This document shows, piece by piece, positions 32,634 to 46,105 of a DNA stretch of 64,000 nt. The stretch is from Phycisphaerae bacterium (GTDB lineage: Bacteria; Planctomycetota; Phycisphaerae; UBA1845; UTPLA1). Both the position numbers and the translations under genes were made by a program. The stretch spans positions 1-64,000 of the forward strand of contig JAHBXN010000003.1 in the NCBI GenBank assembly GCA_019636475.1. Direction: 5' to 3'. Position 1 is the stretch's first letter. Every line of letters begins with the position of its first letter. The notes beneath the pieces are model-generated. The model was given only the letters and a program-made list of their open reading frames with translations, was not told the DNA's origin and ran no database searches.

Positions 32634-33821
32634 TCATCGCGTGGCGTTTTCTATCGATTCTTCCGTTGCGTCTTCGGGCGGTCGCTCAAGTCCCATCCAC
32701 GGCGCCAGGATGCCGGGAAGCGACCAGACAACCTGTACCAGCCGCGCCGACAGCGTCAGCGCGAGCATCGTCGAATAGTCGCACCACTGTCCCTGGACCA
32801 GGACCCGGATGAATACCGCCTCCATCAACCCGAAGCCCTGAAAACTGATCGGAATCGCCGCGAACAGGAATCCCACGACCGACGCCATAAGGACGGCGAA
32901 GTAGAGATCGATCTGGGTTCGATCGCCGGACGCCGTGATTCCGAATCCGCGCGAGAGAAAGTAAATGTAGGTCACGATGCAGATGTGGCTGACGAATGTC
33001 ACGAAAAGCGCCATGGCCGCCTGAGCCTTATGGTATCTGAACGCGAAGGTCGTCTCGTCGATGTGGCGGATCTTCTCCGCGAAGGGTAGCTTGCTCAGCC
33101 AGTGGTCATATCGTAGCAGGGTTCGGACTCGCCGGGAAAAGAACATCAATCCGGCCGCGATGATGCCTACGGTGAGATAGCCGACGATCTGGCCATAAGC
33201 GCCGATTCGGCCGGTGCTCCCCGCAAACATGAGTACCACTGCCGCAATCAGCAGAAAGCTCACGAGACCCACGACACGATCGAGTATCACGATCGTGACA
33301 CCCTGCACGCGCTTCGGCGTTCGCTTCGCGATGTGATACGCCTTGTAAAGATCACCTCCGGTTGATCCGGGCATCGCGAAGTTGAAGAAATTACCGGCAA
33401 ACGTCAGCAGCAGGGCGTCGCGCAGGCTCAAGGCGATCTCCTGCGTCGCAAGCAACAGACGCAATCGCCAGCCGAGAATGAAGGTGACAGGCGCCATCAG
33501 CACGAGCGCCCAGGCCGACCACTTCCAGTCCGTGCGCCGGATGACCGACTTCAGGCCGCGAACAATGCGCGGCTCATTCTCGGAGATCGGCTCGCCGATC
33601 GCCGGTTGATGATAGGGCAGCGTGTGCTCCGCGCCAGTTACAGCATTCTGATATCGAATCGAGTCCCCGGTCTCCGCGATCAGGCGATGCAGAACACCGG
33701 GGTCGCCCGGCAGACGGACGTAGTCATCCAGCGTGACTTTGGTGCTGAGATAGACCAGGGCGGCGGCGCAGACGGCGAGCTTCAGAACCCTCAACGCCCA
33801 TTTCTTGACAGATGCGGTCAA
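32634..33821 (-). CDS. Lysylphosphatidylglycerol synthase-type (flippase-like) membrane protein
   Basis: 395 residues with about eight membrane helices. GNFFNFAMPGSTGGDLYKAYHIAKR is close to the family signature (N-x-x-P-x-R/S-x-G-G) of the LPG-synthase membrane domain/YbhN (UPF0104) family, and ISFQGFGLMEAVF fits its C-terminal motif. There is no catalytic aminoacyl-transferase domain, so it probably moves or senses a lipid rather than making LPG. An unusual loop of about 70 hydrophilic residues follows the first helix (about 35-100). It lies 106 bases after the GT-C-like gene on the same strand and may be co-transcribed with it. Confidence 0.85.
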   Translation of the reverse strand: MTASVKKWALRVLKLAVCAAALVYLSTKVTLDDYVRLPGDPGVLHRLIAETGDSIRYQNAVTGAEHTLPYHQPAIGEPISENEPRIVRGLKSVIRRTDWKWSAWALVLMAPVTFILGWRLRLLLATQEIALSLRDALLLTFAGNFFNFAMPGSTGGDLYKAYHIAKRTPKRVQGVTIVILDRVVGLVSFLLIAAVVLMFAGSTGRIGAYGQIVGYLTVGIIAAGLMFFSRRVRTLLRYDHWLSKLPFAEKIRHIDETTFAFRYHKAQAAMALFVTFVSHICIVTYIYFLSRGFGITASGDRTQIDLYFAVLMASVVGFLFAAIPISFQGFGLMEAVFIRVLVQGQWCDYSTMLALTLSARLVQVVWSLPGILAPWMGLERPPEDATEESIENATR

Positions 33822-33927
33822 ACCGGTTCCTCATCAAAGGCGGGCGGCAGCTTAACGCGACAAGTTGGCCCGGGCAATCCGGCAATCGATGAAGGAGCGA
33901 CGGCGGCACCGGGTTCGAATGGAGCAG

Positions 33928-35505
33928 TCAACGGATCGAGGCAAGGCTTTCCACGCGTCTGAACAGCGCGGCGGTGCGATCCTGATGCAACAGCTCCCAC
34001 CGGCCTGAACCGGCGAGGTAGGCGTGCTGGGGTGATTGACTGCGGACCATGGCATAATCGATATCGCGGTAGATCGCCTCACCCTCGATCTGTTGAGGGT
34101 GTTTCTGAAGCTCAACGTATCGCAGGAGTCCGATGTCGCGATAAAGCTCGCATCGATCGTCAATGAACACGCGCGCCCGAGGCTCACGATAAATCAGGTA
34201 GCCCGCGAATCGCATATCATTAAACACCCTGATGCTGTCGGAATGTCCGGTGCCGGCGATGTGACGCTGCAAGACGGCGGTGGCGTCGACAGGCCAGTAA
34301 TTGGGATCAAGCCGGCTCCATCCGGCCCCTATCACTGGCGCCCGCACCCCCGCCGACTCGAACGTAAACGCAAGGATGACGATTCCGACCGCCGCCCATC
34401 GCGCGTAACGTGCCACGCCGGTAGGTGCCTCGCTTGCTGCACTCCGCGGCACCGGACGGACGAACCCGGTGAGCGGCAGCATGTCGAGGATGACGACCGC
34501 CGCAACCATTGCGAAAATCGGGGCATGACGGACGCGCGACAGCGCAAGCATGAACCACACGGCCGGCAGCAGCCAGGTCACGCGGAGCATGTGGACGCCA
34601 TGACTCCGAAGCACGTGGAAAAGGATCGTGGCGTAAGCGCCGCCGATTGCCAGGATGAACATTCCTTCGACGCTGATCAGCCGGGTTCGAGCGTGTTCGA
34701 TGATGACGCGAGGCAGGACGTCGGAATCCATCAGGCTGATCCAGACGCGCGGCAGTGACACGCCGTAGGGATTCAGCAGCACCGCGGGAATTGCGCCGCC
34801 GACCGCCAGTGCGAAGTAGGGGAAGAGCGAACGGTCAGCATTCTCCCCGGAATCATGCGTCGGGGTGTGAACAATGCGATTGCATCGATGGAACTGCATG
34901 CGAAACACATAAAGCGATCCGATGACCAGCAACGACGCGACGCCTCCCAGTGCGCCGCCATGAAGATTGCTCCAGAGAGCCAGGACCGGCGGAATCGTTA
35001 GCAGCCACCTCGGACTGACGCGGCCGGCCTCCACGTTGCACAGGAGCATGGTGCCCGAGGTCATCGCCAGCAGAGTGACAAGATGCGGACGCGGCATGAA
35101 GTGGTAGCTGCCGGCGGCCGCGATGATCATCAGGAACACGACCGAAATCGGCCAGGACAGGCCGATGCGTTCGGCCCGTCCCGCCAGGATGCCGAATATC
35201 ACGGCAATGAGGACGCACGCGAGCGCGAGCAGTCCGTCGAGACCGGCGGCCCCATGCACCAGTGCCATGATCACTTCAGCGAGCCATTGCTGCGCGATCC
35301 ATTCATTGCCGCCTTGCGTGAAGCTGAACGGGTCTTCGCGGATCACCCGATGCTCGGTCAGCATGCGCTCGCCCGCGACGGTGTGCCAGAGCGTTCCCGG
35401 ATCGCGCATCATTCGGCTTCGACCTGCGATCATCAGGCCCAAAAAGACAATGATAAACACGATGGCGGACGCGCGGCCTGCATGGCGTGAAGTCGGCGGA
35501 TTCAT
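33928..35505 (-). CDS. GT-C-like multi-pass membrane protein of unknown function
   Basis: 525 residues with about 10-12 membrane helices and a soluble C-terminal domain (about 400-520). The first extracytoplasmic loop carries DPGTLWHTVAGERML, reminiscent of the Asp-containing catalytic loop of GT-C glycosyltransferases (PMT/ArnT type), but I cannot assign a known family. The C-terminal region (FNDMRFAGYLIYREP, VFIDDRCELY) resembles soluble domains of uncharacterised planctomycete and actinobacterial membrane proteins. If it is a glycosyltransferase it would use lipid-linked sugars at the outer face of the inner membrane. Confidence 0.7.
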   Translation of the reverse strand: MNPPTSRHAGRASAIVFIIVFLGLMIAGRSRMMRDPGTLWHTVAGERMLTEHRVIREDPFSFTQGGNEWIAQQWLAEVIMALVHGAAGLDGLLALACVLIAVIFGILAGRAERIGLSWPISVVFLMIIAAAGSYHFMPRPHLVTLLAMTSGTMLLCNVEAGRVSPRWLLTIPPVLALWSNLHGGALGGVASLLVIGSLYVFRMQFHRCNRIVHTPTHDSGENADRSLFPYFALAVGGAIPAVLLNPYGVSLPRVWISLMDSDVLPRVIIEHARTRLISVEGMFILAIGGAYATILFHVLRSHGVHMLRVTWLLPAVWFMLALSRVRHAPIFAMVAAVVILDMLPLTGFVRPVPRSAASEAPTGVARYARWAAVGIVILAFTFESAGVRAPVIGAGWSRLDPNYWPVDATAVLQRHIAGTGHSDSIRVFNDMRFAGYLIYREPRARVFIDDRCELYRDIGLLRYVELQKHPQQIEGEAIYRDIDYAMVRSQSPQHAYLAGSGRWELLHQDRTAALFRRVESLASIR

Positions 35506-35975: not shown

Positions 35976-36395
35976 ATGAGAAAGAAGGCGTTTACCCTGG
36001 TCGAACTGTTGATCGTCGTGATCATCCTTGGAATCCTCGCAGCCGTCGTGATTCCGCAGTTCAGCGATGCGAGCACTGAAGCGCGCGAAAGCTCGCTCGC
36101 GACCAATCTCGCGACGATTCGCGGGCAGATTGAATTGTATCGCTTGCAGCACAACGGGAATTATCCTCCTGAGGCGAACTTCGACACGGTCATGACGTCG
36201 AAGACGAATGCCGATCATACGACCACGGGCACGCCGACGCTCGGGCCGTATCTCCAGCGAATTCCCAACAACCCCTTTACAAATACGAACAACGTCGTCA
36301 ATACCGGCACGCCGGCTTCGACCACGGCCTGGTATTACAACGCCGCGACGGGCACCTTCCAGGCCTTTGACACCGTCGCTCACTCGAATCTGTAA
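35976..36395 (+). CDS. Major type IV pilin / GspG-like pseudopilin
   Basis: 139 residues. The N terminus has the prepilin motif KKA|FTLVE, with cleavage expected after Ala5 and Glu at mature position 5, then a hydrophobic alpha helix (to about residue 30). The rest has GspG-like features: RGQIELYRLQHNGNYPP and LGPYLQRIPNNPF, and Trp-Tyr-Tyr near the end. The protein would be processed by a prepilin peptidase and assembled into a pilus or pseudopilus. The ATG at 35976 has GGGGGA about 7 bases upstream. A strong hairpin follows the gene, so it may be made in excess over the downstream minor subunits. It heads the locus that ends with PilM-N-O-P. Confidence 0.9.
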   Translation: MRKKAFTLVELLIVVIILGILAAVVIPQFSDASTEARESSLATNLATIRGQIELYRLQHNGNYPPEANFDTVMTSKTNADHTTTGTPTLGPYLQRIPNNPFTNTNNVVNTGTPASTTAWYYNAATGTFQAFDTVAHSNL

Positions 36396-36440
36396 TTCGT
36401 ATCGTCGCTGGGCCGAACGACAATCTGCTTGACCTGAGGA

Positions 36441-36476
36441 AGGCCGGGGCGGTCGAAGATTCGATCGCCCCGGTCT
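36441..36476 (+). terminator. Hairpin after the pilin gene
   Basis: A stem of about 16 bp (36441-36456 with 36461-36476, including two G-T pairs) and an AGAT loop, followed by the weakly T-rich TCTGAATTATC. It would partly terminate transcripts after the pilin and reduce expression of the genes behind it. Confidence 0.6.
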
Positions 36477-36575
36477 TCTGAATTATCGGCACGGTCATTT
36501 TCGGGCCTCAATCGTGCCACCGGTCCGCATCGAATCGTATGGTTGCATTACCGCGAAACGACGAGAGGATTGCGG

Positions 36576-37115
36576 ATGACCACGACGAAGAATCAACACA
36601 TTCGGAACACAACGTTCGCCGGATTAAAACGCCGCCGCGCATTCACCTTCGCGGAAGCGCTGCTTGCGTCGACCATTCTCGCGATCATCGCGACAACCGC
36701 GACGCTTCCCTTCTCCGCAGGAACGCAAAGCGCCAAGGAAGCCCAAAAGCTCGAACGGGCCGTGGAACTGGCTGAATCCATGATGGAGGAGATCCTCGCA
36801 CGCCCGTTCTTCGCGCCCGGTCAGAGCGCGCCAACGCCCGGTCCGGACTCGGGCGAGACGGTACGACTTGCGTATGACAGCATCGACGATTTCAGCGGAT
36901 ATTCGGAAAGCGATCAGGTCCTCCGCAACTACAAGGGCGGGGCGATCAACGATCCGGACGTCCAGGGCTTCTGGCGACAGGTGTCGGTCGATTATGTGTC
37001 GTATCCTGACCAGCAGCCCGGTGACACGGACAGCATCATGCATGTCCGTGTGAAGGTGTATTACAAGTCCGCGTTACAGGTCACGCTCGATCGCGTCGTC
37101 ACGAGGGATGACTGA
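36576..37115 (+). CDS. Prepilin-like minor subunit (GspI-type position)
   Basis: 179 residues. The prepilin motif RRA|FTFAE is followed by ALLASTILAIIATTATLPF. Ala is at -1 and Glu at mature +5. The body (QKLERAVELAESMMEEIL) matches the helix of GspI/PilV-type minor pseudopilins, but the C-terminal domain is not recognised. The ATG at 36576 is set by GAGAGGA seven bases upstream. Its stop codon touches the next gene's start (37116), so the two are translationally coupled. Confidence 0.82.
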   Translation: MTTTKNQHIRNTTFAGLKRRRAFTFAEALLASTILAIIATTATLPFSAGTQSAKEAQKLERAVELAESMMEEILARPFFAPGQSAPTPGPDSGETVRLAYDSIDDFSGYSESDQVLRNYKGGAINDPDVQGFWRQVSVDYVSYPDQQPGDTDSIMHVRVKVYYKSALQVTLDRVVTRDD

Positions 37116-37853
37116 ATGCCTCAAAAAATCACAAAAATTGCGATGAAACGAGCATTTACGCTGATCGAAATGATGCTTGCGGCATCTGTCACGGCGCTGA
37201 CGGCGACCGCCGGCGCGACCATGATTTATGCCATCAGTTCGTCGGCCACGCAGACCCGCGACTACCGCACCCAGCGATCGGAGGGGCATTATGCTCTGAG
37301 CATGATCGGGAGGACGATTCGGCAGGCCCGCGCGATCGGCTATCTCAACGGCGACAGCATGTCACTCTGGCTGCGGGATTCGAACGGCAATGACACGGTC
37401 GATATTGAAGAAATGGGTCGAATTTACTTCGATTCATCCAACCACGCCGTCCTGTTTGACTACTTCGACAATTCCGAGGTGACGGGACTGGGCGCATTGG
37501 CATTCAATCAGCTCTTCACACCTTCGGATGTCGCGACCGTCATGAATGTCACGCAGCGAAAGACCGTGGCGCTGGCCAAAGGCGTTGATTCGCTCCAGTT
37601 TGACGGCCATCCAGACAGCGTTGAAGTTCGCATGGTGCAGATGCGTCTGACGATGTCGGTCAATGGAGAGTCACTGACCTTCCATCATGCCGCCTCTCCG
37701 AAGGCCTCGGGCGACTACCTGTTCTTCCGTGAGACATCGGTTCCGGTGAGCGACACTTCGACGAGGGTGCTTCGAAAAAAGAAGACGGCATGGGACGGGT
37801 TTTCGTATCTCGGCACACTGACACCGGCCGGAAGCAAGACGCCGACCAAGTGA
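37116..37853 (+). CDS. Prepilin-like minor subunit (GspJ-type)
   Basis: 245 residues. A short leader with KRA|FTLIEMMLAASVTAL gives Ala at -1 and Glu at +5. The body (ALSMIGRTIRQARAIGYLNGDSMSLWL, then beta-strands) fits GspJ/PilW-like minor pseudopilins. GAGGGA precedes the ATG at 37116, which follows directly on the preceding stop. With the neighbours it probably forms the tip complex of the pilus or pseudopilus. Confidence 0.82.
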   Translation: MPQKITKIAMKRAFTLIEMMLAASVTALTATAGATMIYAISSSATQTRDYRTQRSEGHYALSMIGRTIRQARAIGYLNGDSMSLWLRDSNGNDTVDIEEMGRIYFDSSNHAVLFDYFDNSEVTGLGALAFNQLFTPSDVATVMNVTQRKTVALAKGVDSLQFDGHPDSVEVRMVQMRLTMSVNGESLTFHHAASPKASGDYLFFRETSVPVSDTSTRVLRKKKTAWDGFSYLGTLTPAGSKTPTK

Positions 37854-37911
37854 TCGAACGCAGCCGGTAACACGCCACGAGGGCGAATCACGCCGCAGGA
37901 GGCGATTCGAA

Positions 37912-39120
37912 ATGAGCGCGAACGAACGAACAAATCTTCCCGAATCGAGGCGACCACGGTCGCCGCTCGCTCGCCGGGCCTATGTCCTGATCTTCGTGCT
38001 GGGACTGGCGACGGTCGTGAGTTCCCTCGGGATCGCCTATATCCACGCAAACAACACCGCGATGCCCGCGGCGATGAATCGGTACTATGCGTCGCGCGCG
38101 CAGTACCTCGCCGAGTCGGGATTCGATCTTGCGAAGCATTACCTGCTGTATCCGCCATCGTCCGTGCCTTTCGACGGATTCTGGGCCGGCGGAAACCTCA
38201 TCTCGATCGATGGCGGCAATGACTTCACCAATGTCATGGTCACGAAGGATCCGAAGCATCCGCTGGGATACCGGGTCTTCTCTGTCGGAGCCGCCAACGA
38301 TTCGGCAGGGGAACTACGTTCGAAAAAAGGCGTGCAGGCGGACGTGATACTCCCCGAGTCAAACATGTGGAAATTCAATTACGCCTTGCTCAGCAGCTCC
38401 GCAGCATTGAGCATTCCTGCCGCGGTGACGGTGAGGGGCAATCTGCATGGTAACGGTTCGGTCACGGGCATGGGCAATTGCACGGGCGACGTTTCGGCCA
38501 GCCTGAGCGCTACGTGGCCCGGAGGCGGTCCGCCGACGTCGGTGAAATCCTTGCAGCCGACGGTTACATTGCCGGCGTCGACCAATTCGCCGTACTTCAC
38601 TTATACGATTCGCGGCAAGACCTATACGGCTTATGAGTACACGTCCAATCGAATGTCTGCATCGGACGCCCTCGCGCTGAATCAGATTGACATGTCGGCG
38701 ACAAATCCCGGTCGAATCATCCGGACTCCCAACGGCAATTTTCGACTTCAAAACGGAGCCCAGGTCGACGGCACAATTCTCGTATCGGGCGGGAATCTCG
38801 AGGTCGAACTGGGCATCGTTGTCACTGCGCGTCCCAACTTTCCGGCGGTTATCTGCACGGGGAATATCGAAGCAAGAGGCAGCGGTGATGGAGTCTCCGT
38901 TACAGGTGCAGTGATTTGCGGCGGAAATATCACAGACAAGAACAATGGTAACGTCGTGATCAGCGTGCGCGGCGCCACGGTTGTCGGCGGCTCGGTCATC
39001 GTGAACGGGAAGAACAGCATGGCTGAATTCATCTGGGATGCCGATCGCAGCCGTTTTTATAATTTTGAAACCGCCGGCACACGTGAACCGGCCACAGTTC
39101 TGAACTGGACCGAGTATTGA
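37912..39120 (+). CDS. PilX-like pilus assembly protein with repeat-rich C-terminal domain
   Basis: 402 residues. The N terminus has one hydrophobic helix (about 23-42) after a basic stretch, and then AMNRYYASRAQYLAESGFDLAKHYLL, matching PilX/GspK-type N-terminal regions; no FTxxE motif is seen. Residues about 155-385 are short beta-repeats rich in Gly, Asn and Val (VTVRGNLHGNGSVTG, ISVRGATVVGGSVIVNG), resembling the beta-roll of bactofilin/polymer-forming proteins and of DUF7305-type PilX proteins. It may be an adhesive or tip subunit. It starts 58 bases after the GspJ-like gene. Confidence 0.78.
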   Translation: MSANERTNLPESRRPRSPLARRAYVLIFVLGLATVVSSLGIAYIHANNTAMPAAMNRYYASRAQYLAESGFDLAKHYLLYPPSSVPFDGFWAGGNLISIDGGNDFTNVMVTKDPKHPLGYRVFSVGAANDSAGELRSKKGVQADVILPESNMWKFNYALLSSSAALSIPAAVTVRGNLHGNGSVTGMGNCTGDVSASLSATWPGGGPPTSVKSLQPTVTLPASTNSPYFTYTIRGKTYTAYEYTSNRMSASDALALNQIDMSATNPGRIIRTPNGNFRLQNGAQVDGTILVSGGNLEVELGIVVTARPNFPAVICTGNIEARGSGDGVSVTGAVICGGNITDKNNGNVVISVRGATVVGGSVIVNGKNSMAEFIWDADRSRFYNFETAGTREPATVLNWTEY

Positions 39121-39136
39121 CAAGGAAATCGCTCCT

Positions 39137-39466
39137 ATGAGGAAAGTCGTTTCCATTTCGGACGATCGCGCGTCGCGCCTGTTTCGAATCTCAGTGGTGG
39201 CGTTGCTCGCGGTGATCGCCGTTGCATTATGGGACAGCCGACCGTCATTGCTGCCGCAGGCCGTGGGACAGATTCCGGACACCGCGTTGCAGCGTAAGCA
39301 GATGGTGGATGAACAGCGGACCACCAATCAGTTATTGGCCCGTATCCTGAAGCACCTGGAAACGAAGCCGATCAAGACGCGGGCCGCAGGCACCGATGAC
39401 TTCAATGATGCAGGCGAGCGACCCGACGCCGCGCGGAGTCCGTTTGCGGGCAGACCATCGCGGTAG
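39137..39466 (+). CDS. Small single-pass membrane protein in the pilus locus
   Basis: 109 residues: a short basic cytoplasmic start, one membrane helix (about 17-33), a helical segment likely to form a coiled coil (KQMVDEQRTTNQLLARILKHLE), and a disordered C terminus. No family is recognised. Its place between the PilX-like and GspH-like genes, with short gaps, suggests a role in the pilus machine. Confidence 0.6.
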   Translation: MRKVVSISDDRASRLFRISVVALLAVIAVALWDSRPSLLPQAVGQIPDTALQRKQMVDEQRTTNQLLARILKHLETKPIKTRAAGTDDFNDAGERPDAARSPFAGRPSR

Positions 39467-39516
39467 TGCCCGATATGGCGGCCGGGCAACGCTCGGACGG
39501 AAGGGGGAATGCCGAT

Positions 39517-40161
39517 ATGAGAATGCGCGTCGCATTTACATTAATGGAGTTGATGATCGTGGTGGCCATCGCGGCGATCATTTTCGTGGCGTCGGTGACG
39601 GGAGAGGATTCGACCGAGAATGAGAGTATCAAGCAGTTCACCGAGAAGCTTGATGGTGACGTCAGCTATGCACGAAGTCTTTCGATCGCTAATCCGCTCG
39701 ATCCGGTGGTTGTGAAAGTCGATCCGGAATCCGACAAGTACTGGCTTGCCAAGAAGGCGGCTCCGGACACACCGATCGCCAACCCGGCTGATAAAAAGCC
39801 GTACGTCGTCGCGCTGGGACAAAACCCTCAGGCCAAGGGCATCATGCGACGCCTTTCGATTGCGGCGACCGATCTCGGTGATGACAAGATGCTTGAATTT
39901 GATTCGATGGGGACTCTCAAGCGAAGCGACGCCGCAACGATCCGACTGGCCATCGGTGAGCGTGCCGTGGACATCCAGGTGGTGCCCCAGGCGAGCCGGA
40001 CAACCAAGATCACTGCCTCGGTGGATGCGTTGGCGGATGATGGCAGCGGCAAGCTGGTTCGCGAGGAGTCCGCGGACGGCGAAATCGCCACCGAAACCAA
40101 CACCGCTGATGCGAACGACAAGGGACTGATTGAATCGATCCTGGGTGGTCTGGGGCTCTAG
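39517..40161 (+). CDS. GspH-like prepilin
   Basis: 214 residues. Prepilin motif RVA|FTLMELMIVVAIAAIIF with Ala at -1 and Glu at +5. The body (YARSLSIANPLDPVVVKVD, then beta-strands) suits the GspH/FimT group. The ATG at 39517 follows AAGGGGG by about ten bases; an upstream in-frame start at 39466 overlaps the previous stop. The C terminus is an unusual acidic tail ending ILGGLGL. Confidence 0.78.
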   Translation: MRMRVAFTLMELMIVVAIAAIIFVASVTGEDSTENESIKQFTEKLDGDVSYARSLSIANPLDPVVVKVDPESDKYWLAKKAAPDTPIANPADKKPYVVALGQNPQAKGIMRRLSIAATDLGDDKMLEFDSMGTLKRSDAATIRLAIGERAVDIQVVPQASRTTKITASVDALADDGSGKLVREESADGEIATETNTADANDKGLIESILGGLGL

Positions 40162-40212
40162 GGCGGGGATTGAACCGTTTTCGAAGACGCGATTCGGCTG
40201 TGGGAGGCCGCG

Positions 40213-41358
40213 GTGTTATTCAGGAATCGTCACAAACGGGGGCCGATCGGTTTGGACATCGGCGCGTCCGGTGTCCGGATGATTCAATTCGGCAGCGAGG
40301 CGGGTCAGCCTTCGGTTGTGGCGTCGGCTTTCTGCGACTTTCCCCGGGATCTTCCGGAGTCAACGGACATCAACGATGTCGTGCGGGAGACGATCGCCGA
40401 GGCGATGAGGCGCCACCCGTTCGAGGGTCGCGATGTCGTGACGTCGTTCGGCAACGGCGAATTTCAACTCAAGAATATCCGGCTTCCGCGAATGCCGCCG
40501 GATGAATTGTCGGCGGCGGTGGAATTCGAGGCCCGCGAGCGTTTTGACTTCAGCCGGTCACCCGCGCAGGTTCGGTATCTTCCGGTCGGGGAAGTTCGAC
40601 ACGGGAACGAACTGAAGGAAGAAGTCATTGTATTTGCGGCGTTTGAAGAGGTAGTCAACGCGCGACTCGAATTGCTCGAATCGCTTAAGCTGAACCCCGT
40701 GGCAATCGACCTGACGCCGTGCGCCGTGGCGCGCAGCTTCATCCGATTTCTGCGTCGCTCCGAAGACGCCAATGCCATTAATGTCTTCATTGATCTGGGC
40801 TATCGCGGGACGAATGTCATCATCACGCGCGGCGCGGAGATTTCCTTCCTGAAACAGATCGAAGTCGGCGGCATGCAACTGACGGATGCCGTCGCCAAGG
40901 CACTTTCGATCACTCCGCAGGAAGCAACCGAACTTCGCTTGAAAATCATGCGGGAACAAAGCGGCCGCCGTTCGGACGCCGGCGTGACCGTGCCGCACGA
41001 GGTCAAGGCCGCGGTGAGTGACGCGGTTCGGCCGTTTTCGGAGCGACTGGGCCGCGATCTTCAATTGTGCCTTCGGTACTTCGCGGTCACGTTTCGCGGC
41101 CAGAAACCGGAGACCCTGACGCTGGTGGGTGGAGACGCCCACGAACCGCAGCATTCGCAGGTGCTTGGCGAGGCGGTCAGCGTTCCCTGCACGATCGGCT
41201 ACCCGCTTCGCGGGATGGGCGGTCTGGCGGGATTGAGCGGCCGAGATCGACGAACGACGCAGCCTGCGTGGGCGACGGCCTGCGGGTTGGCGCTGCGAAA
41301 CTCGCCATGGGTGCGTACCGGAGCGCGAATGAGCGAACCGGTCGGCGCGGCGACCTAG
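40213..41358 (+). CDS. pilM: Type IV pilus assembly ATPase-like PilM
   Basis: 381 residues, an actin-like fold: LDIGASGVRMIQF near the N terminus (phosphate loop), IDLGYRGTNVIITRG in the middle, and TLVGGDAHEP near the end. PilM is the cytoplasmic ring protein that binds the N-terminal tail of PilN. The start is GTG at 40213 with GGGAGG five bases upstream. It is the first of the PilM-PilN-PilO-PilP set; no motor ATPase, PilC or secretin gene follows within the window. Confidence 0.9.
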   Translation: MLFRNRHKRGPIGLDIGASGVRMIQFGSEAGQPSVVASAFCDFPRDLPESTDINDVVRETIAEAMRRHPFEGRDVVTSFGNGEFQLKNIRLPRMPPDELSAAVEFEARERFDFSRSPAQVRYLPVGEVRHGNELKEEVIVFAAFEEVVNARLELLESLKLNPVAIDLTPCAVARSFIRFLRRSEDANAINVFIDLGYRGTNVIITRGAEISFLKQIEVGGMQLTDAVAKALSITPQEATELRLKIMREQSGRRSDAGVTVPHEVKAAVSDAVRPFSERLGRDLQLCLRYFAVTFRGQKPETLTLVGGDAHEPQHSQVLGEAVSVPCTIGYPLRGMGGLAGLSGRDRRTTQPAWATACGLALRNSPWVRTGARMSEPVGAAT

Positions 41359-41463
41359 CACGAGGTGCGACTGCCAGAGGCAATCGTGCGTCCGGCCTCG
41401 ACGCATCGTCGTCCGGCCGCGCCGTTTTGAAATGGAACGAGAAGACAGGAAGCGTGACTCAGC

Positions 41464-42132
41464 TTGATAGACTGCGATTTCATCCCGAATTCCTACCATG
41501 ACCGCCGCGCCGTCGCGCGCACGATTCGGCGACGTTCCGCATGTGTCGGTGGGATGATCGCGGTCATGTGCATCTGGCTGGTGGCGAATCATCGGCAACT
41601 GAGCGTGGCCGAGGCGATGCTTGCGGATGTGGAGTCCCAGCAATCCCAGTTGAAGCATTTATCGGAAGAGAAGCTGCAACTCCAGTCCGAACTGGCGGGC
41701 ATCGTGACACACGAGCAGATGATCGGCCAGTTGGGCGATCGCGCCAGCTTGGTCATCGTTCTGGCGGACTTGTCTCGGAATATTCCGGAGAATGTGAAAC
41801 TAACACGGGTCACGATGGATGCGACGTACCTGGCACCTTATCTCGTCCTCTCCGGCGGGCATCGCGATCCGGCCAGGAATCCGGTGTCTTCCAGTGTGCC
41901 GAGTCAGGAACAGTTGAATGGCCAGCGAACCGACCGCTTTGACATCCTGCGGCTGGAGGGTATTGCACTGGGGCCGGCGGACGTCATCGAATTTGCGTCG
42001 GCCCTCGAACGAAGCGGACTCTTCGCCGATGTCTATACCGAGGTGGTCGAATCCGGCGTGTGGTCCGGCCGAGCGGTTCGTAAATTCGCATTGCTGTGCG
42101 AGATCATCCCGCACGAGAGGTCGCGGCCATGA
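41464..42132 (+). CDS. pilN: PilN-like inner-membrane pilus assembly protein
   Basis: 222 residues. The N-terminal peptide IDCDFIPNSYHDRR matches the (I/V)xFxPxxYxxRR motif by which PilN binds PilM. One membrane helix (about 28-42), a coiled coil (AMLADVESQQSQLKHLSEEKLQLQSEL) and a ferredoxin-like periplasmic domain follow. The start must be the TTG at 41464: an in-frame stop lies at 41455. It overlaps the PilO-like gene by 4 bases. Confidence 0.85.
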   Translation: MIDCDFIPNSYHDRRAVARTIRRRSACVGGMIAVMCIWLVANHRQLSVAEAMLADVESQQSQLKHLSEEKLQLQSELAGIVTHEQMIGQLGDRASLVIVLADLSRNIPENVKLTRVTMDATYLAPYLVLSGGHRDPARNPVSSSVPSQEQLNGQRTDRFDILRLEGIALGPADVIEFASALERSGLFADVYTEVVESGVWSGRAVRKFALLCEIIPHERSRP

Positions 42133-42698
42133 ATGCAAGGAAACTCAACGCAACATTCATTGCGATCATCGTGGTCGTCTCCGGCGCGTTCGGGTCGCTC
42201 ATGATGGTTCCCGGCCTGCGTGAACTGGAGAAACGCCGCGAAGCGATTGGCGCGGAGTTGAATGAAACGAAGCAGATTCAGGCTGTTGTGGCCGACATGT
42301 CGAGTCTTTATGCGGAAATTCTGCGCGTGCGGGGCAGGGATTTGACACTGTGGGAGCAGGTTCCCGCGGAGCCGCGATTCAGTGAGTTTCTGAACGGCCT
42401 GTCTCGCTGCCTGTCAGCGGGCGGCATCACGAAGTACGACGTCCAGCCGCAACTTGCGAGGGAGATTGACGCGACAAAGCTGCCGGAATCGCTGAATCTT
42501 ATCGGGCAAATCGCCGTTCAGCCGGTCGAGTTGAAGTTCGATGCGGAATTCAAGCAGGTCTTCGAGCTGCTCGCGGAGATGGAAAGGCTAAATCGCCTGA
42601 TTCATGTGGACCGGCTGCAGATGACCTGTGACGACAAGAATGCCGAGACTCTCCATGTAGAGCTGGTGCTACAGGCCTACTATCGGCGACCTGCGTGA
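42129..42698 (+). CDS. pilO: PilO-like inner-membrane pilus assembly protein
   Basis: 189 residues. One membrane helix (about 7-25), a coiled coil (LEKRREAIGAELNETKQIQAVV), and a C-terminal ferredoxin-like domain (PVELKFDAEFKQVFELLAEMERL) typical of PilO. The ATG at 42129 overlaps the PilN stop and has GAGAGG upstream. PilN and PilO form a periplasmic heterodimer in the alignment complex. Confidence 0.82.
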   Translation: MNARKLNATFIAIIVVVSGAFGSLMMVPGLRELEKRREAIGAELNETKQIQAVVADMSSLYAEILRVRGRDLTLWEQVPAEPRFSEFLNGLSRCLSAGGITKYDVQPQLAREIDATKLPESLNLIGQIAVQPVELKFDAEFKQVFELLAEMERLNRLIHVDRLQMTCDDKNAETLHVELVLQAYYRRPA

Positions 42699-42707
42699 GG
42701 ATTCACC

Positions 42708-43403
42708 TTGGATATGTCGTTTGCGACATTGAAAGCTCAACTGGCCGCCGACAAGAAGAAGTCGGTCATCCTCTCCGTACTGCTTGCGGTGCTGCTGGCC
42801 GTCATCGTGCGAGCATTCGTTGCAGACGAATCTCCGGCGGAGGCCGAGGCGCTGATTCCTCCGGCATCAACGTCTGTCAGTGGCGTGTCGACACCGACCG
42901 TGCGGCCTACGACGGTGTCGATCGGCGGCGCTTCTGCGGCCGTCGGTCCGAACTCGTCAAGCGGCGCAGGAAATTACACCGTCGTGCGTCCGAAACGAAC
43001 GAGTTCGAAGAAGATCGCCGTCGATGGCATGTCCCGCGAGATCGTCCGGGACCCCTTTGTTACGCCGTCGTGGAGTCGATTTCCGCAGGATTCCCAATCG
43101 ACGGTCCAAGCGGACGGATCAGCCAATCCAGCGGTAGAATCGGGGCCGGGCATTCTCGATTCGATTCGAAAGCAGTTCAGTCTGTATCAAGACGCGCGTC
43201 GACAGACCGTTCGGAAGTTTGACGCGGAGATCGACGGTCTTGAGTTGCAGTCCACGATGACCGGGCAGAACCGCTCGGCCTACATTTCCGGTCGGCTGGT
43301 ACATGAGGGCGATGAAATCGACGGATTCACTGTCGTGAACATTCGTGAACGGGAAGTCCACCTATCCAAGGGCGGGATTCATGGGCGGCTCAGAATGAAG
43401 TGA
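42708..43403 (+). CDS. PilP/GspC-like alignment protein
   Basis: 231 residues. A membrane helix (about 19-38) is followed by a low-complexity Ser/Ala/Pro linker, and the C-terminal 45 residues (AYISGRLVHEGDEIDGFTVVNIREREVHLSKGG) resemble the beta-sandwich homology region of PilP/GspC that docks onto the secretin. The TTG at 42708 has GAGGA six bases upstream; ATG at 42714 is an alternative. It completes the MNOP set. If the assignment holds, a secretin gene exists elsewhere in the genome. Confidence 0.72.
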   Translation: MDMSFATLKAQLAADKKKSVILSVLLAVLLAVIVRAFVADESPAEAEALIPPASTSVSGVSTPTVRPTTVSIGGASAAVGPNSSSGAGNYTVVRPKRTSSKKIAVDGMSREIVRDPFVTPSWSRFPQDSQSTVQADGSANPAVESGPGILDSIRKQFSLYQDARRQTVRKFDAEIDGLELQSTMTGQNRSAYISGRLVHEGDEIDGFTVVNIREREVHLSKGGIHGRLRMK

Positions 43404-43497
43404 CGGCAGGTCGGCCGCGCTGTTATTTGACTAACCGAGGATCGAGGTTTCCCGGAGGACGGGACGCAGGCGTGTTGACCCGATATAGTCTCGGGCC

Positions 43498-44451
43498 GTG
43501 ACGCGGCCTGCATCACTACCGGCTCTGCTTTTCGTCGCGGTGCTTTCCATTGCGACCGCAGCGATTTTCATCAAGCTGTCGTCCGATGCCGCGCCGATTG
43601 TCATCGCCGCCGCCCGGCTTTCACTATCTGCGATCCTGCTTGTTCCGATCGCGCTCGCGCGGCGCGACGGCTCGGTCCGGTCCGGTGGTCGCAAGCGCTG
43701 GGGTGGCATCGGGCTGGCGGGCGTTTTCCTTGCCGCGCACTTCTTCTGCTGGATTACGTCGCTACGGCACACGAGTGTCGTCAGCTCGGTCGTGCTGGTC
43801 ACGACCAATCCGATCTTTACCGGCATTGCTTCGTATTTTCTCTTCAAGGAACCGATTACACGCCCGCTGCTGTTCGGCATCCTGCTGGCCGTTGTCGGGG
43901 GCGGGACGATCGCCTATGCGGACGCCGGTCGCGATGCCGGCTCTGTGTATGGCAACGTCATGTCACTTCTCGGCGCGATCACCGCGTCGAGCTATTTTCT
44001 GGTGGGGCGAAGCGTTCGACGCGATGTTGACACGCTCAATTACGTTCTGCCGGTTTATTCGATCGCCGCACTTCTTCTGTGCAGCGGGGCGATGGTGCTG
44101 AGGGAACCGATTGCGGGACTTCGCACGTCGACTTATGTGTATTTCGTGCTGTTGGCGATCGTCCCGCAGCTTATCGGTCACAGTATTTTCAACTGGGCAT
44201 TGAAATACATGAGTGCGACGATGATCGCGATCTGCATCCTAGGTGAGCCGATTGGCGCGACGATCATGGCGGCTGGTTTTCTTGACGAGTCAGTTACCGG
44301 AGAGCAGGCCGTCGGTGGGGCACTGATTCTCGCGGGCATATTTCTTGCTTCTCGTGGCTCGCCGCCGGCAGAGAGCGGATCGGATCGCCCCGAATTGGCC
44401 GTTGCGGGTTCCGGGTCGGCGGGTCCGTCGGGCCGGACGAATGGCGACTAG
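43498..44451 (+). CDS. EamA/DMT family transporter
   Basis: 317 residues with ten hydrophobic helices in two homologous halves, typical of EamA-domain drug/metabolite transporters of the inner membrane. The N-terminal half (residues 1-130) contains the SSVVLVTTNPIFTGIASYFLFKEP motif of EamA domains. The substrate is unknown. The GTG at 43498 is preceded by TATAGT (43484-43489) ending 8 bases before it and no ribosome-binding site, so it may have a leaderless transcript. A C-terminal tail of about 30 residues, rich in Gly/Ser/Pro, is cytoplasmic. Confidence 0.9.
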   Translation: MTRPASLPALLFVAVLSIATAAIFIKLSSDAAPIVIAAARLSLSAILLVPIALARRDGSVRSGGRKRWGGIGLAGVFLAAHFFCWITSLRHTSVVSSVVLVTTNPIFTGIASYFLFKEPITRPLLFGILLAVVGGGTIAYADAGRDAGSVYGNVMSLLGAITASSYFLVGRSVRRDVDTLNYVLPVYSIAALLLCSGAMVLREPIAGLRTSTYVYFVLLAIVPQLIGHSIFNWALKYMSATMIAICILGEPIGATIMAAGFLDESVTGEQAVGGALILAGIFLASRGSPPAESGSDRPELAVAGSGSAGPSGRTNGD

Positions 44452-44587: not shown

Positions 44588-46105
44588 ATGCCTGATCGAA
44601 TACGACCATCCTTCGCGGCCCTGATTCTGACCGTCGCGCTACTGGTCCTCGGGAGCAGGGCGGCGATGGCGCAGCCGACCGATATGATTGTAACCTACTG
44701 CGGGCCGGTGGACCCGGACAATAGCTTGATCCTGGATGATCCAACGGAGGTGCTGGAATCACTCCTGACTCTTCCGACGTCCGGCGTGATTCATGATCTC
44801 GATGTTCAGCTTGGCATCGAGCATTCCTGGGTTGGCGACCTGCGTGTTCATCTGATTCACTTCGAGACCGGTTCGTATGCTGTGCTGGTTGATCGACCGG
44901 GAAACCCAGCGTCGCCGGCGGGGTGTGGGAGCAATGACCTACTTGTTGTGCTGGATGATGACGGCTTCGGCGGCCCACTTGAAGATCAGTGCGGGGCATC
45001 GAGCGACGCGTCATTTCCGACATCGCCTCCGAACTTCACTCCGTATCAGCCGCTGAGCGCATTTAACGGCGAAAGCCTCGACGGCAACTGGCTTCTGAGC
45101 GTGACGGATCTTCGTCCCGGCAATTCGGGTCGGCTTGTTTCATGGTGCCTCCGAGCCAACCTCGGTTCCGGGGAGATTCGCTCCACCGTCTCTGCGGCGG
45201 CTGACAGCGGCGCAGATTTGTGCGCGCCGCAGTCCGATGAACTGGTTGTCGCTCCCGGCACGACGTTGCGATTCTGCTATGAGGTGGCGAATCCCGGCGA
45301 AGTCGGGTTTGATCGGCTATCGCTGAATAGTTCGTTGCATGGAGATGTGCTTGTCGATGAGCATATTCCGCTGGCGCCGGGTGCGGACTACCGGATTTCT
45401 CAACTCGCGACCATCACGGCCGATGTGGTTGTGACGGGGACATGGCAGGCGGGCATCGCGGACGCGAGCCTGACTTCGGACGATCAAATCACGATATTGA
45501 TTGATTCCGACGGGGACGGGCGCGCCGATGTTCATGATCAATGTCCGGGAGGAGATGATTTCGTCGATTCGGATGGTGACGGCGTCGCCGACAGTTGCGA
45601 CGGATGCCCGAATGATCCCGAGAAGACGGAGCCGGGCGTCTGCGGGTGCGGCATGCCCGAGACGGACTGCGGCGAGGTCGACAATTCCAACGATAATTCA
45701 AACTCCAACGACAACGCGAACGACAACACGAATCTCAACGGCAACAAGAACGACAACACGAATCTCAACGGCAATGACAATTCCAATTCGTCCGACGAGG
45801 GCAACGCAAACGACAACGTCGGCAACGACAATCTGAATTCGAACGGTAACGGGAATTCAAACCTGAACGGCAATACCAATCAGAATTCGAACGCCAACAA
45901 CAATCAGAATTCCAACGTCGATTCCGGCGGCAACCAGAACACCAACTCCGGCAATCAGAATGGTGACGGGCCGGCAGGCTTGCCGTTTGAGGACTGCCTT
46001 TCCCATCTGAATTGCGGTGACGGTCTTTGCGGCGCGGGCGTGAATTTCTTCGCGGCCATCGCGGCCATGTTTCTTTTTGTGGCACGGAACCGTCGTACTC
46101 GTTGA
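44588..46105 (+). CDS. Secreted P-domain protein with type 3 repeats, Asn-rich linker and CGxG tail
   Basis: 505 residues. A signal peptide (to about residue 29, ending AMAQ) precedes a proprotein-convertase P-domain (about 35-190; ending GESLDGNWLLSVTDLRPGN and LVSWCLRANL), a beta-jelly-roll that in proteases is a regulatory domain but here has no catalytic partner. A second beta-domain (about 195-295) and one thrombospondin type 3-like module (DSDGDGVADSCDGCPNDP) follow. Then comes an Asn-rich linker (about 363-460) and a C-terminal tail with Cys-Gly-Ala-Gly, a membrane-like helix and RNRRTR. The tail matches that of the other repeat protein (60-2693) in design. Confidence 0.85.
   Translation: MPDRIRPSFAALILTVALLVLGSRAAMAQPTDMIVTYCGPVDPDNSLILDDPTEVLESLLTLPTSGVIHDLDVQLGIEHSWVGDLRVHLIHFETGSYAVLVDRPGNPASPAGCGSNDLLVVLDDDGFGGPLEDQCGASSDASFPTSPPNFTPYQPLSAFNGESLDGNWLLSVTDLRPGNSGRLVSWCLRANLGSGEIRSTVSAAADSGADLCAPQSDELVVAPGTTLRFCYEVANPGEVGFDRLSLNSSLHGDVLVDEHIPLAPGADYRISQLATITADVVVTGTWQAGIADASLTSDDQITILIDSDGDGRADVHDQCPGGDDFVDSDGDGVADSCDGCPNDPEKTEPGVCGCGMPETDCGEVDNSNDNSNSNDNANDNTNLNGNKNDNTNLNGNDNSNSSDEGNANDNVGNDNLNSNGNGNSNLNGNTNQNSNANNNQNSNVDSGGNQNTNSGNQNGDGPAGLPFEDCLSHLNCGDGLCGAGVNFFAAIAAMFLFVARNRRTR
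45679..45966 (+). repeat. Asn-rich low-complexity coding repeat
   Basis: About 95 codons made mostly of Asn with Asp, Ser, Gly, Thr or Leu, such as NDNSNSNDN and NTNLNGN. The unit NDNTNLNGN occurs twice. It likely forms a flexible, hydrophilic spacer between the folded domains and the anchoring tail. Confidence 0.85.

Follow-up and report, generated by a model that had tools for sequence, protein, structure and literature searches.

A Phycisphaerae prepilin and PilM-N-O-P cluster is very probably the upstream half of a split type IVa pilus operon

The closest described systems to the gene cluster considered here are the type IVa pilus (T4aP) and the type II secretion system (T2SS). T4aP genes usually occupy several loci in bacteria, according to PMC6668835. 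The cluster lies at positions 35976–43403 of a 64,000-nucleotide stretch, hereafter the window, from the 4.4-Mb genome of a Phycisphaerae bacterium (G000), assembled in 18 contigs (labelled C1, C3, C4, C7 and so on, with the window on C3). Pseudopilin-like minor pilins and a GspC-like HR domain are shared with the T2SS. With the T4aP, the cluster and a second locus on C7 together share FimU/PilV/PilW/PilX-like minor pilins and a core of PilM-N-O-P, a PilQ-like secretin, PilB, PilT and PilC, in which PilT exceeds its curated cut-off. A preliminary description had listed GspG-, GspH-, GspI- and GspJ-like prepilins followed by PilM, PilN, PilO and a PilP/GspC-like protein, and had suggested a lineage-specific machine mixing T2SS and type IV pilus (T4P) parts. 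All of these frames and their matches are present, and the four prepilins stand, with a fifth, pK (37912–39120), having been overlooked. The mixed machine does not survive: G/H/I/J/K-like pilins with PilM-N-O-P, a PilQ-like secretin, PilB, PilT and PilC make up a T4aP. We find that the window very probably holds the upstream half of a T4aP operon typical of Phycisphaerae, cut between pilP and the secretin gene, and that the other half lies at C7:191322–203427(-).

The motor, platform and secretin had been reported as not nearby, and a whole-genome profile scan places none of the T2SSE, T2SSF or secretin matches close to C3:36–43 kb. Searching the genome for secretin, PilB/PilT and PilC genes, as had been proposed, located them together on C7. 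There the order is secretin, a TPR protein with a lipobox-like N-terminus, PAS histidine kinase, receiver, GAF-HD-GYP protein, STAS protein, PilB with an MshEN domain, PilT and PilC, followed by gyrA. The Pfam matches are T2SSE plus MshEN for the motor PilB and two T2SSF domains for the platform PilC, and PilT scores 406.6 bits with TIGR01420 (cut-off 319.1). The C7 secretin (C7:201304–203427(-)) shares 61–68% identity with 13 same-family orthologues and 55–56% with the other 3; the remaining secretins of this genome reach about 23–30% identity to the relatives' operon secretins.

The relatives supply the missing junction. Relatives of this genome are labelled Phycisphaerae, Phycisphaerales or Planctomycetota, plus a few others. 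We compared 61 genomes; 17 belong to the same family, namely the window's own and 16 relatives. An orthologous secretin gene lies directly 3′ of PilP in 15 of these 16 relatives (exception, G007), followed directly by the TPR gene. Thirteen of the 15 could be read past the secretin, G004 and G016 ending on short contigs, and all 13 continue with histidine kinase, receiver, GAF-HD-GYP, STAS, PilB and PilC; PilT sits between PilB and PilC in 11 of these 13 contiguous loci. No PilM is encoded on C7, the four PilM matches of the genome being in the window and at C1:294 kb, C1:592 kb and C4:44 kb. Because C7 lacks PilM and the relatives continue contiguously from one gene set into the other, the window and C7 form complementary halves of one system. 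Gene content, orthology and gene order, on which this reading stands, are direct observations. The core had also been suggested to be perhaps shared with another locus. The rest of the machine does lie elsewhere, on C7, which holds no complete system; with PilM absent from C7 and a single PilP match in the whole genome, a core shared with a complete system is rejected.

The same junction is kept well beyond the family. A wider set of 80 loci, the best 80 of 109 confirmed, was annotated with family-built profiles; some lie on the same contigs as the compared genomes (for example L110 in G006 and L115 in G007). PilP leads directly into the secretin gene in 62 of the 67 loci with >2.5 kb downstream. 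The exceptions are L115, L139, L147, L154 and L185. L139 has a secretin with PilP unrecognised, and L185 is counted as lacking a secretin despite a tblastn secretin match there. Gene order is thus kept across the class, far above chance.

The machine is best called a T4aP, judging by its sequence features. PilT is above its cut-off, PilM and PilN are separate, and the T2SSK domain was not found, so T4aP fits where T2SS does not. No GspL-type fusion of PilM and PilN occurs here, longer PilM-like proteins being found at C4 and C1 instead, and PilT in the C7 half sets the system apart from a T2SS, which has no retraction ATPase. A T2SS/T4P hybrid is rejected on the same T2SS traits and on the contiguous T4aP operon of the relatives. 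The pilus is a divergent one, since PilM, PilB and the secretin score under their NCBIfam cut-offs. It also differs from other T4aP in residing mostly in one long operon in this class, together with a TPR lipoprotein, kinase, receiver, GAF-HD-GYP and STAS genes, and in having prepilins with Ala at position −1. A complete T2SS or T4P elsewhere in the genome had been named as a finding that would count against a special machine. This is borne out by half: two further T2SS/T4P-like sets lie at C4:38–49 kb and C1:575–601 kb and bring pilins and a PilM/GspL-like protein of their own, but both are systems separate from the window/C7 pilus. The C1 set is T2SS-like, with GspL-, GspK- (T2SSK match), GspJ- and GspF-like proteins.

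The break lies inside two large contigs, at 43 kb of the 505-kb C3 and at 203 kb of the 267-kb C7. G007 shows the same internal break, with PilP on its C40 and the secretin on its C35. A tree built from the concatenated PilM, secretin and PilP sequences places G007 beside the unsplit G002 and G013 (support 99), and the window's genome beside the unsplit G005, G014 and G016 plus G006 (support only 73). Since each split genome groups with unsplit relatives, two separate breaks at one junction are the simplest reading, and the tree suggests that the pilP/secretin split arose separately in the two genomes. A different break, between the pilins and PilM, is found in G001. Promoter and terminator scans at the break showed no promoter-like site on either side and were uninformative.

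Several points weigh against a single split T4aP. Three core proteins fall short of their models: the window PilM reaches 119 of the 133 bits required, the C7 PilB 569 bits with its best model, pilB TIGR02538 (cut-off 675.65), and the C7 secretin 197.7 bits as PilQ (cut-off 284.35) and 190.8 as GspD, also below cut-off, so that PilQ is barely preferred. No AMIN domain is among the Pfam matches of that secretin at E 0.01. In 3 of the 14 same-family relatives read across this stretch, no PilT gene lies between PilB and PilC. One A24 prepilin peptidase match occurs in the genome, in or near the Tad locus (C1:87218–87526), despite several type IV filament sets. That the two halves assemble into one machine is itself deduced from their sequences, and cross-use is possible because the genome has further PilB, PilC and secretin copies. 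The split, finally, is known from assembled contigs.

An alternative is a lineage-specific, T2SS-like secretion machine that borrows its secretin and its motor from a second, complete system. The resemblance of the G/I/J/H-like pilins to pseudopilins, the near-equal GspD score of the secretin and the two further T2SS/T4P-like sets would suit it. We consider it very improbable, because PilM is missing from the split-off motor cluster, which is contiguous with the window genes in relatives, PilT exceeds its cut-off, PilM and PilN are unfused, and pK lacks T2SSK. An assembly artefact, in which the halves are truly adjacent in the chromosome and wrong flanks were joined, draws on the 18-contig assembly and the contiguity in relatives; the position of the break inside two large contigs and the same internal break in G007 make this, too, very improbable. 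A degenerate remnant, the window half having been nonfunctional since the split, would account for the loss of the secretin and motors from the operon and for some divergent prepilins, and is the least probable of all, as all ten window frames are intact with conserved motifs and the halves are complete and complementary. We therefore retain the single T4aP split in two, whose upstream genes are collected in Table 1.

Table 1 Features of the upstream half in the window
Feature	Position	Strand	Evidence
pG, GspG-like prepilin, candidate major pilin	35976..36395	+	N_methyl 4.2e-7; T2SSG 1.8e-4
pI, GspI/PilV-like minor prepilin	36543..37115	+	N_methyl 1e-3; RRA-FTFAE; orthologues in the same place in relatives
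pJ, GspJ/PilW-like minor prepilin	37116..37853	+	N_methyl 1.3e-3; gspJ TIGR01711 16.6 bits, cut-off 64.85
pK, PilX/GspK-position prepilin, predicted beta-solenoid head, 402 aa	37912..39120	+	AlphaFold2 (AF2) model, ComZ-like predicted fold
sml, small bitopic membrane protein, 109 aa	39137..39466	+	Transmembrane segment 15–33; helix-like, probably periplasmic part
pH, GspH/FimU-like minor prepilin	39466..40161	+	N_methyl 1.1e-3; gspH TIGR01708 21.2 bits, cut-off 80; RVA-FTLME
PilM, 381 aa	40213..41358	+	PF11104 101.6 bits, 5.5e-29; TIGR01175 119 bits, cut-off 133
PilN, 222 aa	41464..42132	+	PF05137 36.1 bits, 6.7e-9
PilO	42096..42698	+	PF04350 25.2 bits (2e-5) and PF10741 T2SSM_b 28.0 bits (2e-6), both over cut-off
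PilP/GspC-like, transmembrane segment and HR domain, last gene before break	42708..43403	+	CdsD_C 30.7 bits, 3e-7
Break point	43404..43497	.	Secretin gene here in 15/16 same-family relatives; in the window an EamA transporter gene (43498–44451) is next

The best NCBIfam model of pG is TIGR01710 gspG (63.5 bits, under the cut-off of 88.85), and its N-terminus reads KKA-FTLVE. The N_methyl matches of pI, pJ and pH are each under the Pfam cut-off, but each protein carries the A-F-T-x-x-E motif and their orthologues keep an identical order in relatives. Glu5 is present in pG, pI, pJ and pH and absent from pK. All five prepilins (35976–40161) have Ala, not Gly, at residue −1, just ahead of the cleavage site. 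Both residues occur at this position among the 80 loci; the 64 matched pG proteins, for example, have 16 Ala, 47 Gly and 1 Glu.

PilM, PilN and PilO are three separate frames above their Pfam cut-offs; the PilM alignment used 18 of 20 relatives, leaving out L062 (a fragment) and L064. The PilP-like protein, aligned from the window and 43 of 74 members, is found in all 17 same-family genomes, the window's own included, and in 23 of the 61 overall (E <= 0.001). The model of its C-terminal domain has a fold that fits both the GspC HR domain, with Z 10.2 (1.6 Å over 59 residues), and PilP, with Z 7.7 (1.2 Å over 55 residues). The small protein sml has a core AQIPDxGxQR in its alignments (A1 and A5, the latter from the window and 28 of 69 members). 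Its co-occurrence with the locus, raised as a check by the preliminary description, is borne out: it is present in 53/61 genomes and lies no more than 5 kb upstream of PilM in 61/71 loci. Since it stands directly 5′ of the secretin gene, away from PilM, in several more distant families, sml may belong functionally with the secretin.

The prepilin pK has a described counterpart by predicted fold. The report on ComZ of Thermus thermophilus (PMC6561018) presents it as a GspK-like pilin whose last two strands are separated by an inserted solenoid, itself closest to FfIBP, and proposes ComZ as a DNA receptor at the pilus tip. The AF2 model of pK (predicted local distance difference test score 89.7) has a helix at 21–79, strands at 93–146, a solenoid at ~150–378 and a last strand at 395–401, and it predicts that, as in ComZ, the solenoid is inserted between the penultimate and last pilin strands. 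ComZ (6qvi) is the top Foldseek match of the model (E 4.6e-6) and comes first in a profile search of solved chains (E 0.004). The predicted solenoid aligns with FfIBP (4nu2) at Z 15.4 and 2.9 Å over 186 residues with 12% identity, tied with other ice-binding proteins; the whole model aligns with 6qvi_C at Z 12.5 over 306 residues, with a root-mean-square deviation of 10.4 Å that perhaps comes from a different setting of the two domains. By this prediction the two share a pilin helix and sheet, an FfIBP-like beta-solenoid before the last strand and a gene beside GspI- and GspJ-like pilins. They differ in length (>500 aa for ComZ and 402 for pK), and their structural-alignment identity is 11–15%. 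In an alignment of the window protein with 29 references (30 were listed, and L154 was dropped), PilX_N matches occur in 6 of the 30 members, and neither pK nor the 29 relatives has a T2SSK match; a VIA-align listing for pK contains no GspK chain, which proves nothing. Pilins of the pK type are present in 30 of the 57 loci with at least 6 kb upstream. The solenoid is near neutral in charge (14 K+R, 13 D+E), which is neutral as to DNA binding. With ComEC in the genome DNA uptake is possible, and adhesion is as likely.

The second class-specific feature is the cassette between secretin and PilB. STAS lies directly 5′ of PilB in all 46 loci that reach PilB. An HD-GYP protein with a kinase and/or receiver stands between secretin and PilB in 36 of them; the other 10 pass from secretin/TPR straight to STAS and PilB. 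Every one of the 49 HD-GYP proteins examined has intact HD and GYP motifs, and in the window's genome the receiver and the kinase retain the residues of theirs. A DS-x-(G/A)LE stretch occurs in the STAS proteins; in RsbV/SpoIIAA this stretch holds the phosphorylated serine.

MshEN domains bind cyclic di-GMP (c-di-GMP) through two RLGxx...LxxxLxxQ motifs whose Arg and Gln residues contact the ligand (PMC5013675). In the C7 PilB both motif arginines are replaced (by Q and L) and the second Gln by Ala; the NCBIfam c-di-GMP motif model still scores 53.9 bits, over the cut-off of 38. The loss of both arginines and one glutamine disfavours a simple c-di-GMP switch on PilB, and one acting via MshEN is not firmly supported by the sequence. 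A related arrangement is PdeK-PdeR of Xanthomonas, a two-component phosphodiesterase control of PilB described in PMC11656802. A kinase and a c-di-GMP phosphodiesterase are linked to the T4P motor in both; the Xanthomonas enzyme has an EAL domain, whereas the cassette here has HD-GYP, a separate receiver and STAS, and lies within the pilus operon. Our preferred guess, from gene order, is that STAS may act on PilB, because it is constant even in loci without the rest of the cassette. Our literature search, which left most subscription papers outside, found no paper joining a STAS domain, PilB and type IV pili and, by title, nothing on type IV pili of Planctomycetes with PilM and secretin; for ComZ and pilins of Planctomycetes it yielded a treatment of modular pilins at large.

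From what is known of T4aP, PilB and PilC would polymerise pG into a fibre capped by a tip of I/J/K/H-like minor pilins, in which the solenoid pilin pK would serve as adhesin or DNA receptor. PilM-N-O-P would form the alignment complex linking the platform to the secretin, and PilT would retract the pilus. The kinase/regulator/HD-GYP/STAS cassette might control PilB, a weaker proposal. The pilus may serve in adhesion, twitching or DNA uptake. A more far-reaching possibility, which we hold only tentatively and think rather unlikely as a whole, is a class-wide T4aP super-operon whose PilB motor would be gated by three elements of the operon itself: a phosphorelay, an HD-GYP phosphodiesterase and, as a new T4P motor partner, an RsbV/SpoIIAA-like STAS protein. 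A ComZ-like solenoid tip pilin would then occur beyond Thermus, and sml would be a new small membrane subunit linked to the secretin.

Other observations concern secretins and neighbouring genes. The C7 secretin (L073:15305–17428) has a helical, TPR-like stretch past the secretin domain, near the C-terminus. A 4,881-aa frame at C1:575537–590182(-) (L212:1538–16183) ends the T2SS-like operon and encodes a giant secretin, in which 30 Secretin_N stretches are joined to a single Secretin domain at the C-terminus. Such frames measure 4,261–5,207 aa in 15 of the 17 same-family genomes, against 1,184 and 1,952 aa, perhaps at contig ends, in the remaining two. In family f4 they reach 4,050–4,719 aa in 10 of the 13 genomes, but in the 12 genomes of family f8 they measure 1,253–1,843 aa. 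Two T2SSE proteins are neighbours at C1:619–623 kb (L075), one of them an ATPase that carries an FHA domain at its N-terminus. Ahead of the pilus operon, window positions 32634–35505(-) encode an LPG_synthase_TM-like protein and a 525-aa membrane-type protein with no Pfam match, and both genes also lie upstream of it in several relatives. The product of 44588–46105, past the break, is of secreted type and 505 aa long; it has a P-domain, long repeats rich in Asn/Asp and, at its C-terminus, a hydrophobic tail resembling a sorting signal.

The machine has the core of an ordinary T4aP, cut in two in this genome, and carries extras specific to the class; its variant features are the in-operon kinase/HD-GYP/STAS cassette and the ComZ-like prepilin pK. 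Because T4aP genes usually occupy several loci, the split is the ordinary state and the long single operon of this class the less usual one. An apparently incomplete hybrid machine is thereby resolved into a pilus in two pieces, a warning that partial clusters should not be called new systems before relatives are checked. The conserved in-operon STAS and HD-GYP proteins and the ComZ-like pilin offer testable predictions on the control of attachment or DNA uptake in a large, mostly uncultured group.

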